A stretch of 48,557 nt of DNA from Neptuniibacter sp. (GTDB taxonomy: Bacteria > Pseudomonadota > Gammaproteobacteria > Pseudomonadales > Balneatricaceae): the NCBI RefSeq assembly GCF_024231755.1, contig NZ_JAAEQH010000106.1, positions 1 through 48,557 on the forward strand. The letters are read 5' to 3'. Made by a program: the position numbers and the translations under genes. The notes beneath the pieces were generated by a model, which saw only the letters and a list, made by a program, of their open reading frames with translations, ran no database searches and had not been told where the DNA came from. Each line of letters starts with the position of its first letter. Position 1 is the stretch's first letter. Of this stretch, positions 17,657 through 35,133 are shown piece after piece.

Positions 17657-18658
17657 ATGTTCGATAATAAAACCATATTGATTACCGGTGGCACCGGCTC
17701 CTTTGGTAAACAATATACAAAAACCCTACTGGAACGCTATCGTCCTAAGAAAATCATCATTTACTCCCGAGATGAACTTAAACAGTTTGAGATGCAGCAA
17801 TATTTTGATGCGCCATGCATGCGCTATTTCATTGGAGATGTACGCGACAAAGACCGGTTGCAACAAGCCATGCAAGGTATCGATTACGTAATTCACGCCG
17901 CTGCACTCAAGCAAGTTCCTGCTGCAGAATACAATCCTATGGAGTGTATTAAGACCAATATTCACGGAGCTGAGAATGTCATCAAAGCTGCATTATCAAA
18001 TAATGTAGATAAAGTTATTGCTTTATCTACGGATAAAGCAGCAAATCCAGTAAACCTTTACGGAGCCACCAAATTAGCATCAGACAAGCTTTTTATTGCG
18101 GGAAACAATATTGCAGGCGGCCACAGAACCCGCTTTAGCGTTGTCCGTTACGGCAACGTTGTAGGATCACGTGGCTCGGTAGTTCCATTCTTCAGAAAAC
18201 TGATCAATGACGGTTGTGATGCATTACCTATTACACATTTGGAAATGACTCGTTTCTGGATCACGCTACAGGAAGGTGTAGATTTTGTGCTAAAAAATCT
18301 TGAAAGAATGCAAGGTGGGGAGACCTTTATTCCTAAAATACCTTCAATTCGCATCACAGACCTCGCCAATGCGATGGCTCCAAGCTTACCGCTTAAAGAT
18401 ATAGGTATCCGCCCTGGAGAGAAACTTCACGAAATCATGCTACCGTCTGATGATTCATACCATAGCGTCGAATTTCACGATCACTATGTAATCACACCAA
18501 CTATTCGCTTTTTCTCTGGTGATATTGATTACACTCGAAACCACCTTAATGAAAAAGGTCACGCAGTACCTTCCGGTTTCGAGTATAACTCTCTAAACAA
18601 TAGCAACTTCCTTACTGTAAACCAGATAAAAAATCTGAACGAGCAATTAGGCCTATGA
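17657..18658 (+). CDS. pseB: PseB, UDP-GlcNAc 4,6-dehydratase (5-inverting)
   Basis: First step of pseudaminic-type sugar synthesis: UDP-GlcNAc to UDP-2-acetamido-2,6-dideoxy-beta-L-arabino-hex-4-ulose. Extended SDR protein, 333 residues, the family's usual size. NAD(P)-binding GGTGSFG at 11-17, and the PseB catalytic set D126, K127 (STDK) and Y135, K139 (YGATK). AGGGAAG lies 7 bases before the ATG. First gene of the plus-strand cluster; its stop overlaps the pseC start (ATGA). A sigma28-like promoter lies directly upstream. Confidence 0.95.
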
Positions 18659-19806
18659 TAGGTTACGGTCGACAATCTATATCTCAAGAAGATATAGATA
18701 CTGTTGTTGATGTACTCAATTCTAATTCTCTCACACAAGGGCCCGTAGTGAATGCTTTTGAAAAAGCCCTGGCGGATAAGTGCCAGTCGAAACATGCTCT
18801 AGCGGTATGCAATGGAACCGCAGCCCTACATCTTGCTTGCCTAGCACTTGAAATTGAAAAAGATGATCTTGTATGGGTAAGTTCGGTCAGTTTCGTAGCA
18901 AGTGCAAACTGCGCAAAATACTGCGGTGCAGAGGTAAGTTTCGTCGATATTGACCCAAATAGTGGCTTAATATGTACAACTGAATTGGCTCAGAAATTAA
19001 AAAACGCAGAAAACAATGGCCTTCTTCCTAAAGCTCTCATTGTGGTCCACCTAGCAGGACAGAGCTGTGACATGAAGACTATCAGCTCTCTATGTCAGCA
19101 GTATGATATCAAGATTATCGAAGATGCTTGCCATGCTCTAGGAGGGCAATACGAAAGCAAACCCATTGGTTCATGCCAATATAGCGACATATCCGTTTTT
19201 AGTTTTCACCCTGTAAAACCGATAACAAGCGGAGAAGGCGGGGCCTTACTTACCAACAAAAAAGAATTAGCTAACAGGGCTCGACTCTATGCAAATCACG
19301 GTATCGTAAGAGATGAGGAGAAATTGCAACACTCAACTCAGGGCCCTTGGTATTATGAAATGCAGGCTTTGGGTTATAACTACCGCTTAACGGACCTTCA
19401 AGCAGCTCTAGGGCTATCCCAATTAAAACGCTTAACTGACTTCACCCTGAAAAGAAATCAAATTGCAAAACTTTACACTGACGCTTTAGAAAGTATGAAG
19501 CTTCCATTTCAGCATTTACAGCAAAGCATTGGTCAAATATCTGCGTATCACCTTTACGTTGTCAGGCAATCAAGTCACCTCTCTCAATCCCAGCTATTCA
19601 AGAGAATGCATGAGCAAGGTATAGGCTGTCAGTTACACTACATCCCCATCTTTATGCATCCTTACTATGCAGCATCTACTGATGCACAAAGTTTTCCCGG
19701 CGCATTAGAGTATTATCACTCGGCATTATCTCTCCCCTTATTCCCGGATATGGATGAAAAAACAATTCACAAAGTTCTTAATGTTTTAAGCAACTGCTGC
19801 CGATAA
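18655..19806 (+). CDS. pseC: PseC, UDP-4-amino-4,6-dideoxy-AltNAc transaminase
   Basis: PLP enzyme of the DegT/DnrJ/EryC1 family, 383 residues. It aminates C4 of the PseB product using glutamate. Visible: NGTAALHLA near 53-61, D157 in [10 protein letters not shown], and the PLP lysine K188 in [13 protein letters not shown]. It overlaps pseB by 4 bases, so the two are translationally coupled. The 4-amino sugar it makes is the point where the pathway normally uses PseH for N-acetylation; no PseH-like gene is present, but a formyltransferase lies at 34336. Confidence 0.95.
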
Positions 19807-19842
19807 CCTCTTTTAATTAGTTTGACAATAAGCTCTCAACTC

Positions 19843-32978: not shown

Positions 32979-32996
32979 ATATCGGGGATTGCCTGC

Positions 32997-34343
32997 GTGG
33001 ATATAAAAAATAACGAAGAAGAACTCTTAAGTCAGTGCTTTGACTCACTTTTCCCCATATGCCGTTCAATTACCGGGCCCGGCCTAGAACAGTCTATCGC
33101 CCTATTTAAGGAGTATATGCCACTTCAGATTGAAAAGATCCCTACTGGAACTCAAGTATTCGATTGGGAAGTACCTCCAGAGTGGCATTTTAAACGTGCC
33201 AGACTATGGGGCCCTAATGGAGAAGTGGTCTGTGATACGAACGAATCTAATCTTCATGTAGTGAACTACTCAGAGCCTGTAAATAGATCAATAGAGCTAG
33301 AAGAACTCCAAAAGCATTTACACAGTATTCCCTCACTTCCCGAAGCTATTCCTTATGTCACAAGCTATTACAATCGCTCTTGGGGTTTCTGTTTGCCACA
33401 TAAGCAACGCCAAGAGCTGCAACCAGGTACCTATAAGGTTGAAATTGACAGTTCATTTTTCCATGAAGGGGGAGTCCCCTTCGCTCATTGCACCATAGTA
33501 GGTGAGAGTTCAAGAGAAATACTGCTTACTAGCTATCTATGCCACCCTTCCCTTGCTAATAATGAATTGAGTGGACCATTGGTACTGCTCGGACTACACA
33601 ACCGTATTCAACAATGGTCAAAGCGAAGATTCTCGTACAGGTTTCTCCTCAATCCAGAAACAATCGGTTCTCTTTGCTTTTTATCCAAATATTACCGTCA
33701 TCTACAATCCAACCTAGAAGCAGGCTTGATTCTAACCTGTGTTGGGGGCCCTGAATCAAACTTAAAGTACAAGTCAAGTAGAATGGCAAACAGTCTCTTC
33801 GACTCCTATGTTTCTTATCTCGCTGACCATAATCCTACGATATGGAAAGCACTCCCGTTTAATCCTTTGGGAGGCTCTGACGAACGACAGTACTGCTCCC
33901 CTGGTTTTAACTTGCCTATGGGCCAGATATCACGAACTACATATGGCCAGTACGATGGATACCATAACTCATTGGATACAAAAGAGTTTATGGACATAAA
34001 ACAACTTATAAAAACAATTGATCAACTAGAGGCTTTCCTTTTAGATGCTGAAATTGCTGGTAAACCATTAAACCTCAGCCCTTATGGTGAACCCCAGCTC
34101 GGCAAGAGAGGACTTTATCCAAATGTAAACTCACCTAATAATTGGCGTAACTCCAGTGATCGTATGCATGATGACAGAAAAGTTCTAAACGCAATTCTCA
34201 CCATTCTAAATCTAGCAGATGGTGAGCATAGCATTCTTGAAATAGCCAACCTGCTCGATCTTCCGTTAGACGACCTTAGGCCCATAATAGAGAAACTAGA
34301 AAGCGAAAATTTAATCCGATTTAATAGTGAACAAAATGTTTAA
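32997..34343 (+). CDS. DUF4910 aminopeptidase-like protein with winged-helix C-terminus
   Basis: 448 residues. Match to the DUF4910/DUF2172 family, which has a zinc-aminopeptidase (M28-like) fold: FPICRSITGPGL at the N-terminus, then SYLCHPSLANNELSGP, LLNPETIGS, GSDERQYCSPGFNLPMG and YDGYHNSLDT, which together hold candidate metal ligands. A small winged-helix-like tail follows (about 395-448). These proteins recur in polysaccharide and flagellar glycan clusters; a hydrolase acting on an amide is plausible but not shown. GTG start with GGGGA upstream. Its stop overlaps the start of the formyltransferase gene. Confidence 0.78.
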   Translation: MDIKNNEEELLSQCFDSLFPICRSITGPGLEQSIALFKEYMPLQIEKIPTGTQVFDWEVPPEWHFKRARLWGPNGEVVCDTNESNLHVVNYSEPVNRSIELEELQKHLHSIPSLPEAIPYVTSYYNRSWGFCLPHKQRQELQPGTYKVEIDSSFFHEGGVPFAHCTIVGESSREILLTSYLCHPSLANNELSGPLVLLGLHNRIQQWSKRRFSYRFLLNPETIGSLCFLSKYYRHLQSNLEAGLILTCVGGPESNLKYKSSRMANSLFDSYVSYLADHNPTIWKALPFNPLGGSDERQYCSPGFNLPMGQISRTTYGQYDGYHNSLDTKEFMDIKQLIKTIDQLEAFLLDAEIAGKPLNLSPYGEPQLGKRGLYPNVNSPNNWRNSSDRMHDDRKVLNAILTILNLADGEHSILEIANLLDLPLDDLRPIIEKLESENLIRFNSEQNV

Positions 34344-35133
34344 ACTCATATTTCTAACTGGCGATCATCCCCGGCACCTATATATAGCAAGAGCCCTTGC
34401 CAAGGCTGGCCTGCTATCAAAATTGATAATTGAAAGAAGAGAACACTTTATACCCAAGCCTCCCGAGAACATTAGCCCCAAATTAGTTCAACTATTCACT
34501 CATCACTTTGCTGAAAGAGAGAGAATTGAGCAAAAAATGTTTGGTCCTGCTAAGTTACCGAGTTGTGATACTGTCTATACCACTTACGACGACCTCAATA
34601 GCTCAGATATTAAAAATTTCTTAGAAGAGGAAGATCCAGATCTCTTTCTAACCTATGGTTGCCATAAGTTAACCCAAGAGACCCTTGAAGCCGTTGACGG
34701 GCATAAATGGAACTGTCATGGAGGCCTTTCCCCTTGGTATAAAGGTGCTATTACCCATTTTTGGCCTAGTTACATGCTGGAACCTCAGATGACAGGTATG
34801 ACAGTTCACGAATTAACTCAGGAATTAGATGCCGGAGATGTAGTCCATCAATGCACTGCTCCTTTAGTGGCAGGGGACTCTCTACATCAATTAGGTGCAA
34901 GAGCCGTCGTCCAACTCGCTGAAGAGCTACCTACTCTGATTAATCTACTGAAGAAAAAAGGAGCTCTACCTACCCATAAACATAAAACAAACGGTATGTT
35001 ATGGCGCTCAAGCGCTTGGAGAGCAGATCATCTGTCACTCATATATGAGCATTATGGAGATAAAATCGTAGATCATTACCTCGAAGGGAATTTAATACAG
35101 TCTGAACCTAAAATTTACCGCCAATTCGACTAA
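34336..35133 (+). CDS. formyltransferase-family protein
   Basis: 265 residues with the methionyl-tRNA formyltransferase/ArnA-type fold. The catalytic triad is present: N126 and H128 in WNCHGGLSPWYKG, and D165 in ELDAGDVV. The usual HGSLLP loop is HGGLSP here. Sugar N-formyltransferases of this family use N10-formyl-THF on 4-amino sugars. PseC makes just such a 4-amino sugar and the cluster lacks PseH, so N-formylation instead of N-acetylation is a reasonable inference. ATG 34336 overlaps the DUF4910 stop; a GTG at 34327 is also possible. It is the last gene of the plus-strand cluster. Confidence 0.82.
   Translation: MFKLIFLTGDHPRHLYIARALAKAGLLSKLIIERREHFIPKPPENISPKLVQLFTHHFAERERIEQKMFGPAKLPSCDTVYTTYDDLNSSDIKNFLEEEDPDLFLTYGCHKLTQETLEAVDGHKWNCHGGLSPWYKGAITHFWPSYMLEPQMTGMTVHELTQELDAGDVVHQCTAPLVAGDSLHQLGARAVVQLAEELPTLINLLKKKGALPTHKHKTNGMLWRSSAWRADHLSLIYEHYGDKIVDHYLEGNLIQSEPKIYRQFD

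Follow-up and report, generated by a model that had tools for sequence, protein, structure and literature searches.

The canonical pseudaminic acid pathway of Campylobacter and Helicobacter (PseB-PseC-PseH-PseG-PseI-PseF) shares PseB, PseC, the logic of a CMP-activated donor and transfer by Maf with the putative flagellin-glycan island described here. This island lies in a 48,557-nucleotide stretch of Neptuniibacter sp. DNA ("the window"), which is the whole of contig C106 of a draft genome with a completeness of 88.7% and a contamination of 5.9%. In contrast to the canonical pathway, the window has no PseH, its NeuB-family synthase lacks a SAF domain and scores under the PseI cut-off, its CTP transferase is fused to PseG in a divergent form, and a set of side-chain genes is present.

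A much closer counterpart is the sfm system of Shewanella oneidensis. There, sfmABCDE (SO_3261-3265) encodes a 290-aa NeuB-domain protein, a thiamine pyrophosphate (TPP) enzyme, a short-chain dehydrogenase/reductase (SDR), a methyltransferase and an ATP-grasp protein; the five genes are needed for flagellin modification, with each single loss shifting the flagellin mass (sfmE slightly less), PseB and PseC are SO_3271 and SO_3270, and clear orthologues of PseH, PseG, PseI and PseF are reported to be lacking (PMC3765264). A second study reports that PseB is required too (PMC3120886). According to the sfm paper, the glycan consists of a mono-acetyl pseudaminic-type core of 274 Da (C11H18N2O6) and an extra group of 236, 250 or 264 Da (C9H16O7, C10H18O7 and C11H20O7), whose structure that 2013 paper leaves unsolved, and the published fragment ions agree with C20H33N2O12+ to C22H37N2O12+ to about 1 ppm (PMC3765264). 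The glycan totals that we recomputed agree within 2.9 to 8.2 mDa. Read as acyl groups, these arm formulas would correspond to open-chain, nitrogen-free, methylated polyhydroxy acids, the free acid having a single unsaturation, and the mono-acetyl core formula would leave one amino group for acylation; alternatively, the arm may be an isomeric O-methyl octose, in which case one core amino group would stay free. The flagellin glycan of Treponema denticola is reportedly a mono-acetyl nonulosonic acid carrying a 2-methoxy-4,5,6-trihydroxyhexanoyl group on N7. If this structure is correct, it likewise joins a 274 Da core to a methylated polyhydroxyacyl amide, a likeness that concerns the glycan only, and its arm and the 236 Da arm of Shewanella are exactly C2H4O2 apart, that is, one two-carbon ketol unit. 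Its mass is given as 450.2 Da (PMC9481697).

Comparing the window with these systems, we consider it probable, with moderate confidence, that it holds an exchangeable sfm-type flagellin-glycan island making a pseudaminic-like acid with an amide-linked, methylated polyhydroxy-acid arm. A SAF-less NeuB of about 290 aa, a carboligase (TPP enzyme), an SDR, methyltransferases and ATP-grasp proteins nearby, and PseB/PseC and Maf in a flagellar region are all found in the window, and the same kinds of genes make up the S. oneidensis set. The window NeuB is 60-62% identical to the NeuBs of four other Shewanella (L042, L049, L050 and L082), with which it forms one clade (support 100/100). Unlike the MR-1 set, which was compared by description only, the window has a split transketolase, three ATP-grasp proteins, a DUF4910 protein and a formyltransferase. 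The carboligases also differ: SO_3262 is reported to be a 581-aa TPP protein annotated as ilvB, and that of S. oncorhynchi is DXS-like. As judged by its genes, the cluster thus appears to be an elaborated variant of the sfm-type pathway, and the claim of the initial annotation that it departs from known pathways is not supported as worded, given that sfmABCDE comprises the same gene kinds, including the 290-aa NeuB-domain protein (PMC3765264). Apart from that paper, no description of such a gene set was seen among the papers listed in the literature searched, which leaves most subscription journals outside.

The island consists of 15 consecutive open reading frames at 17657-35133, all on the plus strand, bounded by fliS on one side and by maf, fliD, flaG and flagellin on the other, all on the minus strand. 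The initial annotation had described these 15 genes, and open reading frames and Pfam/NCBIfam scans of the window proteins (with curated cut-offs where named) bear it out once fliS and maf are placed on the minus strand; its family assignments were upheld by the same scans, motifs and profile comparison, and PseB and PseC, which it called textbook, both exceed their curated cut-offs. The genes are as follows.

17059..17469, minus: FliS, island flank (TIGR00208)
17657..18658, plus: PseB, inverting UDP-GlcNAc 4,6-dehydratase (TIGR03589, 560 bits, cut-off 408)
18655..19806, plus: PseC aminotransferase, product a free 4-amino sugar (TIGR03588, 526 bits, cut-off 424)
19822..20703, plus: SAF-less NeuB-family synthase, SfmA-like, tail WRADPSDGLRP (PF03102 alone)
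20746..21672, plus: S-adenosylmethionine (SAM) methyltransferase 1 (PF13489)
21771..23072, plus: ATP-grasp ligase 1 (PF02655/PF13535)
23066..23977, plus: transketolase N-terminal half, TPP domain (PF00456, Transketolase_N; GDG..N motif)
23974..24945, plus: transketolase pyrimidine and C-terminal half (PF02779, PF02780; catalytic Glu motif)
24942..25688, plus: SDR reductase adjoining the carboligase (PF13561; TGxxxGxG and YxxxK)
25685..26890, plus: ATP-grasp ligase 2, L-amino-acid-ligase (LAL) type, SfmE-like, proposed PseH replacement (PF18603 LAL_C2 plus ATP-grasp)
26934..28103, plus: SAM methyltransferase 2 (PF13489)
28103..29227, plus: ATP-grasp ligase 3, no Pfam match (hhalign against the ATP-grasp 2 alignment, 99.9%)
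29330..31246, plus: GH57/GH38-fold enzyme with invariant E123 and D222 (PF03065; model)
31239..32978, plus: CMP-sugar transferase, SpsF/KdsB-like, fused to a probable divergent PseG (PF02348, CTP_transf_3; remote TIGR03590)
32997..34343, plus: DUF4910 peptidase-fold protein, relative of 3k9t (PF16254; DUF4910 + DUF2172 + HTH_47; 3k9t E=5e-88)
34327..35133, plus: formyltransferase (PF00551, Formyl_trans_N; NCHGGLSP and LDAGD motifs)
35254..37311, minus: Maf glycosyltransferase, proposed to transfer the sugar to flagellin (PF20157, PF01973)
37409..39523, minus: FliD, flank (PF07195, PF02465)
40054..42402, minus: flagellin, proposed acceptor (NCBIfam flagellin models; PF00669)

The SAF-less NeuB clade

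The window NeuB matches PF03102 without a SAF domain and reaches 181 bits with the PseI model, below its cut-off of 340. Named genomes were scanned with an alignment of nine NeuB relatives, and all counts out of 50 clade and 30 control loci given below are among the matches listed. The NeuB loci, at least 80 in number, are separated by a sharp gap in identity into 50 at 51-69% (the clade) and 30 at 29-36% (the controls). In a tree without L069, L074, L079 and L081, whose NeuB is cut or frame-broken, the window protein and 46 of the 50 clade NeuBs lie on one side of a long-stemmed branch with a support of 100/100, opposite 34 other NeuBs. The tail motif WRxxPxDGxRP is found at 47 of the 50 clade loci and at none of the 30 control NeuB loci, the three clade loci without it being the cut or frame-broken L069, L079 and L081. 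These patterns indicate that the SAF-less NeuB of the window belongs to a separate clade, whose tail can serve as a sequence marker for finding such pathways. Residues E18, K46, Q48, K115, S197-D198-H199 and H221, which we take to be the phosphoenolpyruvate and metal sites by assuming the roles of the Neisseria meningitidis enzyme, are invariant in the nine aligned rows.

The distribution of the clade is patchy. By record title it includes, among the matches listed, Proteobacteria, Desulfobacterota, Nitrospirota, Acidobacteriota, Verrucomicrobiota, Actinomycetota, Bacillota and one archaeon, a list to be taken as indicative because some draft titles are doubtful (e.g., one Helicobacter pylori and one Bifidobacterium breve). 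Closer to home, no clade NeuB was found at E ≤ 1e-40 in one genome of the same genus and 10 of the same family, close relatives (at least 53% identity) occur in 2 of 292 other genomes of the order, and 7 of 369 genomes of the class, the own included, have a match at E ≤ 1e-60. Whole-genome counts were made over 30 genomes: G099, G419 and those that stand for 28 of the 50 named clade loci. In 22 of them, including all four Shewanella, the clade member is the sole NeuB above 100 bits, and at L054 the clade NeuB is fused to a CTP transferase; because of these two observations, we read the SAF-less NeuB as the likely core synthase.

The missing SAF domain itself was considered as a unique trait and rejected, since other short NeuBs exist and 6ncs is a solved NeuB of 290 aa. 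A second group of NeuBs of about 290 aa without a SAF-length tail, outside the window's clade, is present in part of L094-L113 (Gastranaerophilales and others). The short NeuB on contig C214 of the own genome groups with other short NeuBs, likewise outside the clade, and has two MptE-like proteins nearby. Finally, the NeuB cluster at L029 also encodes an iron alcohol dehydrogenase and a TPP-domain protein of 196 aa, a gene set that suggests an extra pathway branch.

Side-chain genes and a possible pathway

Which genes accompany the clade was assessed with profiles whose seed sequences came from the window and from clade loci, a bias in favor of the latter that should be kept in mind. Loci longer than 15 kb ("long") make up 31 of the 50 clade loci, which include the near-duplicates L043/L062 and L063/L070/L080, and 16 of the 30 controls. 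A TPP carboligase is found at 27/50 clade loci versus 1/30 controls (20/31 versus 0/16 among the long ones), relatives of ATP-grasp 2 at 29/50 versus 0/30, relatives of methyltransferase 1 at 27/50 versus 1/30, and an SDR at 32/50 versus 5/30. PseB (20/50 and 9/30) and PseC (18/50 and 12/30) do not discriminate between the two sets. This comparison with control NeuB loci led us to reject the idea that the genes are chance neighbors. A Maf-type domain is missing in 12 of the 30 genomes. Relatives of ATP-grasp 1 and 3 occur together again in S. insulae (L082), in Methanocalculus (L083) and at L073.

The carboligase comes in three types, verified by Pfam on examples: a split transketolase at 12 loci (L047 also has a DXS-like frame), a DXS-like enzyme at 7 more and an ALS-like enzyme at 6, with a partial transketolase at 2. 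Regardless of type, it adjoins the SDR in 20 of the 22 loci that have both. That non-orthologous but chemically alike enzymes share one position is the strongest hint that the function kept here is carboligation followed by ketone reduction. The proposal that a transketolase makes the side chain is not supported as worded, the transketolase being one of three interchangeable types. The split transketolase of the window carries the usual TPP and catalytic-Glu motifs. Elsewhere, the own genome has separate 740-aa and 593-aa frames with the PF02779 pyrimidine domain, which by size would be a full transketolase and DXS, suggesting that the split pair is extra. A role of the pair in the pentose-phosphate pathway is unlikely in view of the 740-aa frame with the same domain, taken as a transketolase by size alone.

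PseH was searched for in 24 of 31 genomes (the 30 plus the own), and no match over its cut-off was found in any of these 24, the own genome (88.7% complete) included. Weak acetyltransferase matches occur in 20 of the 24, and like matches in 13 of 14 control genomes. The absence of PseH fits N-acylation by an ATP-grasp ligase, and the comparative data support a PseH-less nonulosonic-acid pathway for flagellin. PseG and PseF, which had been counted with PseH and PseI as missing or altered, appear to be altered rather than missing, whereas PseH is indeed missing and the PseI-type NeuB is SAF-less. The second half of the CTP-transferase fusion (31974-32978) matches TIGR03590 at E=0.014, below the curated cut-off, and four stand-alone PseG homologues reach 1e-10 to 1e-38, all below it as well, which would make this half a divergent PseG.

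The following scheme reconstructs reactions and product from what was observed, namely gene content, conservation, co-occurrence and locus exchange. PseB and PseC would produce UDP-2-acetamido-4-amino-2,4,6-trideoxy-altrose. In parallel, the split transketolase would extend an acid that bears an aldehyde by two carbons; reduction of the resulting ketone by the SDR and capping of hydroxyls by a methyltransferase would yield an open-chain polyhydroxy acid with O-methyl groups. This acid would then be activated by ATP-grasp ligase 2 and placed in amide linkage on the 4-amino group, the position acetylated by PseH. After release of UDP by the PseG half, condensation with phosphoenolpyruvate by the SAF-less NeuB would turn the sugar into a pseudaminic-like acid, from which the CTP half would form the CMP donor, and Maf would hand the activated sugar to flagellin. 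Further decorations may come from ATP-grasp 1 and 3 and from the DUF4910-formyltransferase pair. A side chain made by TPP enzyme, SDR and methyltransferase and joined by ATP-grasp, as had been suggested from the genes, fits both the comparative data and the published Shewanella formulas. The comparison of window and sfm genes thereby yields a concrete, falsifiable proposal for the structure of the arm and for the enzymes that make and attach it, in a laboratory strain that is easy to handle. More tentatively, and with rather less confidence than we have in the island itself, it is tempting to speculate that there is a widespread class of nonulosonic acids with an O-methylated polyhydroxy acid in place of acetyl on N7, a dedicated SAF-less NeuB clade, any of three TPP carboligase types and swapping of entire cassettes along with Maf. 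If this were true, the class would include the 236-264 Da group of Shewanella and perhaps the Treponema glycan, which would differ by two-carbon carboligase units.

The maf-fliS slot and competing explanations

A genome of the same genus (G258; L132, 7404-13716) has the order flagellin-flaG-fliD-maf-[SAF-bearing NeuB, NeuC-like epimerase, CMP-transferase/pyruvyl-transferase-like]-fliS. Like the island, this Neu/Leg-type cassette sits in the maf-to-fliS slot beside a Maf; in contrast to it, the cassette has a NeuB with SAF and a NeuC-like epimerase, both just under the curated NCBIfam cut-offs, and no TPP, SDR or ATP-grasp genes. FliS, FlaG and FliD of this genome are 83%, 68% and 64% identical to those of the window, and Maf just 34%. 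In a genome of the same family (G037), fliD and fliS adjoin with nothing between them. The slot thus seems to hold different nonulosonic-acid cassettes with divergent Mafs, of which exchange is the simplest reading, and whole nonulosonic-acid pathways would differ at one flagellin-glycan slot within a single genus.

Several observations weigh against the proposed island and its scheme. At 23 of the 50 clade loci, and at 11 of the 31 long ones, the DNA examined has no TPP enzyme, so the arm would not be universal. The scheme assigns no role to the GH57-like enzyme, conserved though it is. In the PseG half, the His of the GLGH motif, which we presume to be catalytic, is replaced by Gln, so that UDP release by this half is doubtful; His is found in 17 of 19 rows (which count two contigs twice, L026/L034 and L014/L075), and the two Gln rows come from the window and L015, the same two clade clusters in which the DUF4910-formyltransferase pair was seen. 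On contig C214 (L012, ~31-42 kb) the own genome has another NeuB of a different kind, about 253 aa long, and in G419 a NeuB with SAF and one without it lie in the same cluster (L029, 14104-18116). The 12 genomes without a Maf-type domain belong here too, as do 5 of the 30 clade genomes that have no flagellin match (Desulfuromonadales, Nitrospinota and Chlorobiaceae drafts, the archaeon Methanocalculus and a SAR86 genome), because of which the pathway would not be devoted to flagellin everywhere. Homologous clusters in non-flagellated strains had been named beforehand as a ground for refutation, and the result is split, as the other 25 genomes do have a flagellin match.

Among the competing explanations, an unlikely but still substantial one is that the ATP-grasp proteins join amino acids, that the formyltransferase caps an amine, and that transketolase and SDR make a branched sugar, a kind of product known from YerE-type carboligases. 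The cluster contains three ligases and a formyltransferase, ATP-grasp 2 has the LAL_C2 domain of L-amino-acid ligases, to which some of its solved relatives belong, and flagellin glycans bearing amino acids are known from Clostridium, reportedly including C. botulinum. For the 236 Da group, the published precursor mass alone would also permit C8H16N2O6, at a deviation of 8 mDa versus 3 mDa for C9H16O7. Yet in the sole measured sfm-type glycan, the extra group is nitrogen-free by fragment ions fitting to about 1 ppm (PMC3765264). Somewhat less likely still is that the side-chain acid is a product of the SAF-less NeuB, formed from phosphoenolpyruvate and a small aldose via a 3-deoxy-2-keto acid that is then reduced by the SDR, methylated and ligated, with another enzyme making the core. 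NeuB chemistry does yield 2-keto-3-deoxy acids, the paired NeuBs of G419 and the second NeuB of the own genome would suit such a division of labor, and the 2-methoxy-4,5,6-trihydroxyhexanoyl arm of T. denticola is said to equal a reduced 3-deoxy acid. This is countered by the 22 genomes, some of them incomplete drafts, in which no other core maker was seen, by the CTP-transferase fusion at L054 and by the presence of the NeuB at loci without a TPP enzyme.

That flagellin carries plain or formylated pseudaminic acid, with the TPP, SDR and ligase genes forming an unrelated neighbor operon, we regard as improbable. PseB, PseC, the CTP transferase and the formyltransferase would formally suffice for it, and the canonical cluster of G546 (L123) has a formyltransferase in the place of PseH and a DUF4910-formyltransferase pair nearby, but in many lineages the NeuB clade is accompanied by TPP, SDR, ATP-grasp and GH57-like genes, which are rare or absent at the 30 controls. 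The least probable alternative, to which we give very little weight, is a surface polysaccharide as the product. Flagellin-less clade genomes such as the archaeon and the SAR86 genome would agree with it, whereas the position of the island between fliS and maf-fliD-flagellin, the flagellin of most clade genomes and the different cassette and divergent Maf that the same-genus genome has in this slot all argue for a flagellin glycan.

Accessory genes and flanks

The GH57-like enzyme is present at 27/50 clade and 0/30 control loci. Its model has a pLDDT (predicted local distance difference test) of 88 and best matches 1k1x, a 4-alpha-glucanotransferase, in the PDB, as well as GH38 mannosidases. 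E123 and D222, presumably the nucleophile Glu and the acid/base Asp, are invariant in 22/22 rows, and a dead domain was rejected on this ground.

The formyltransferase lies directly 3' of DUF4910 in all four cases seen (the window, L015, L123 and L124), in two of which (L123 and L124) the stretch examined has no NeuB of the clade. It is found in 3 of 369 genomes of the class, the own included, and neither this formyltransferase nor DUF4910 was found at any of the 50 named clade loci. At L123, the pair is part of a canonical PseC-PseF-PseG-PseI cluster in which another formyltransferase (3200-3856) lies between PseG and PseI, the usual place of PseH; this genome (G546) has no flagellin match. 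Judging from this gene arrangement, the formyltransferase would travel with DUF4910 as an accessory, and our guess is that DUF4910 removes an acyl group that the formyltransferase replaces. A formyltransferase standing in for PseH was kept as a rival only, given its attachment to DUF4910 in cases without the NeuB clade, and the 4-formamido group proposed in the initial annotation is unproven. In Methanocalculus taiwanensis (L083), whose genome has no flagellin match, another formyltransferase stands beside the SAF-less NeuB, together with PseB (74%), PseC and three ATP-grasps.

In 2-kb blocks, the G+C content is 0.39-0.45 in the island, 0.44-0.49 to its left (as far as 16 kb) and 0.38-0.47 to its right, so the dip is clear against the left flank only. 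The outer flanks (5583-9527, 10496-12448 and 43045-46496) are ordinary, with a large hybrid histidine kinase, an acetyl-CoA-synthetase-like enzyme, and an MMPL transporter with a YCF48-like partner.

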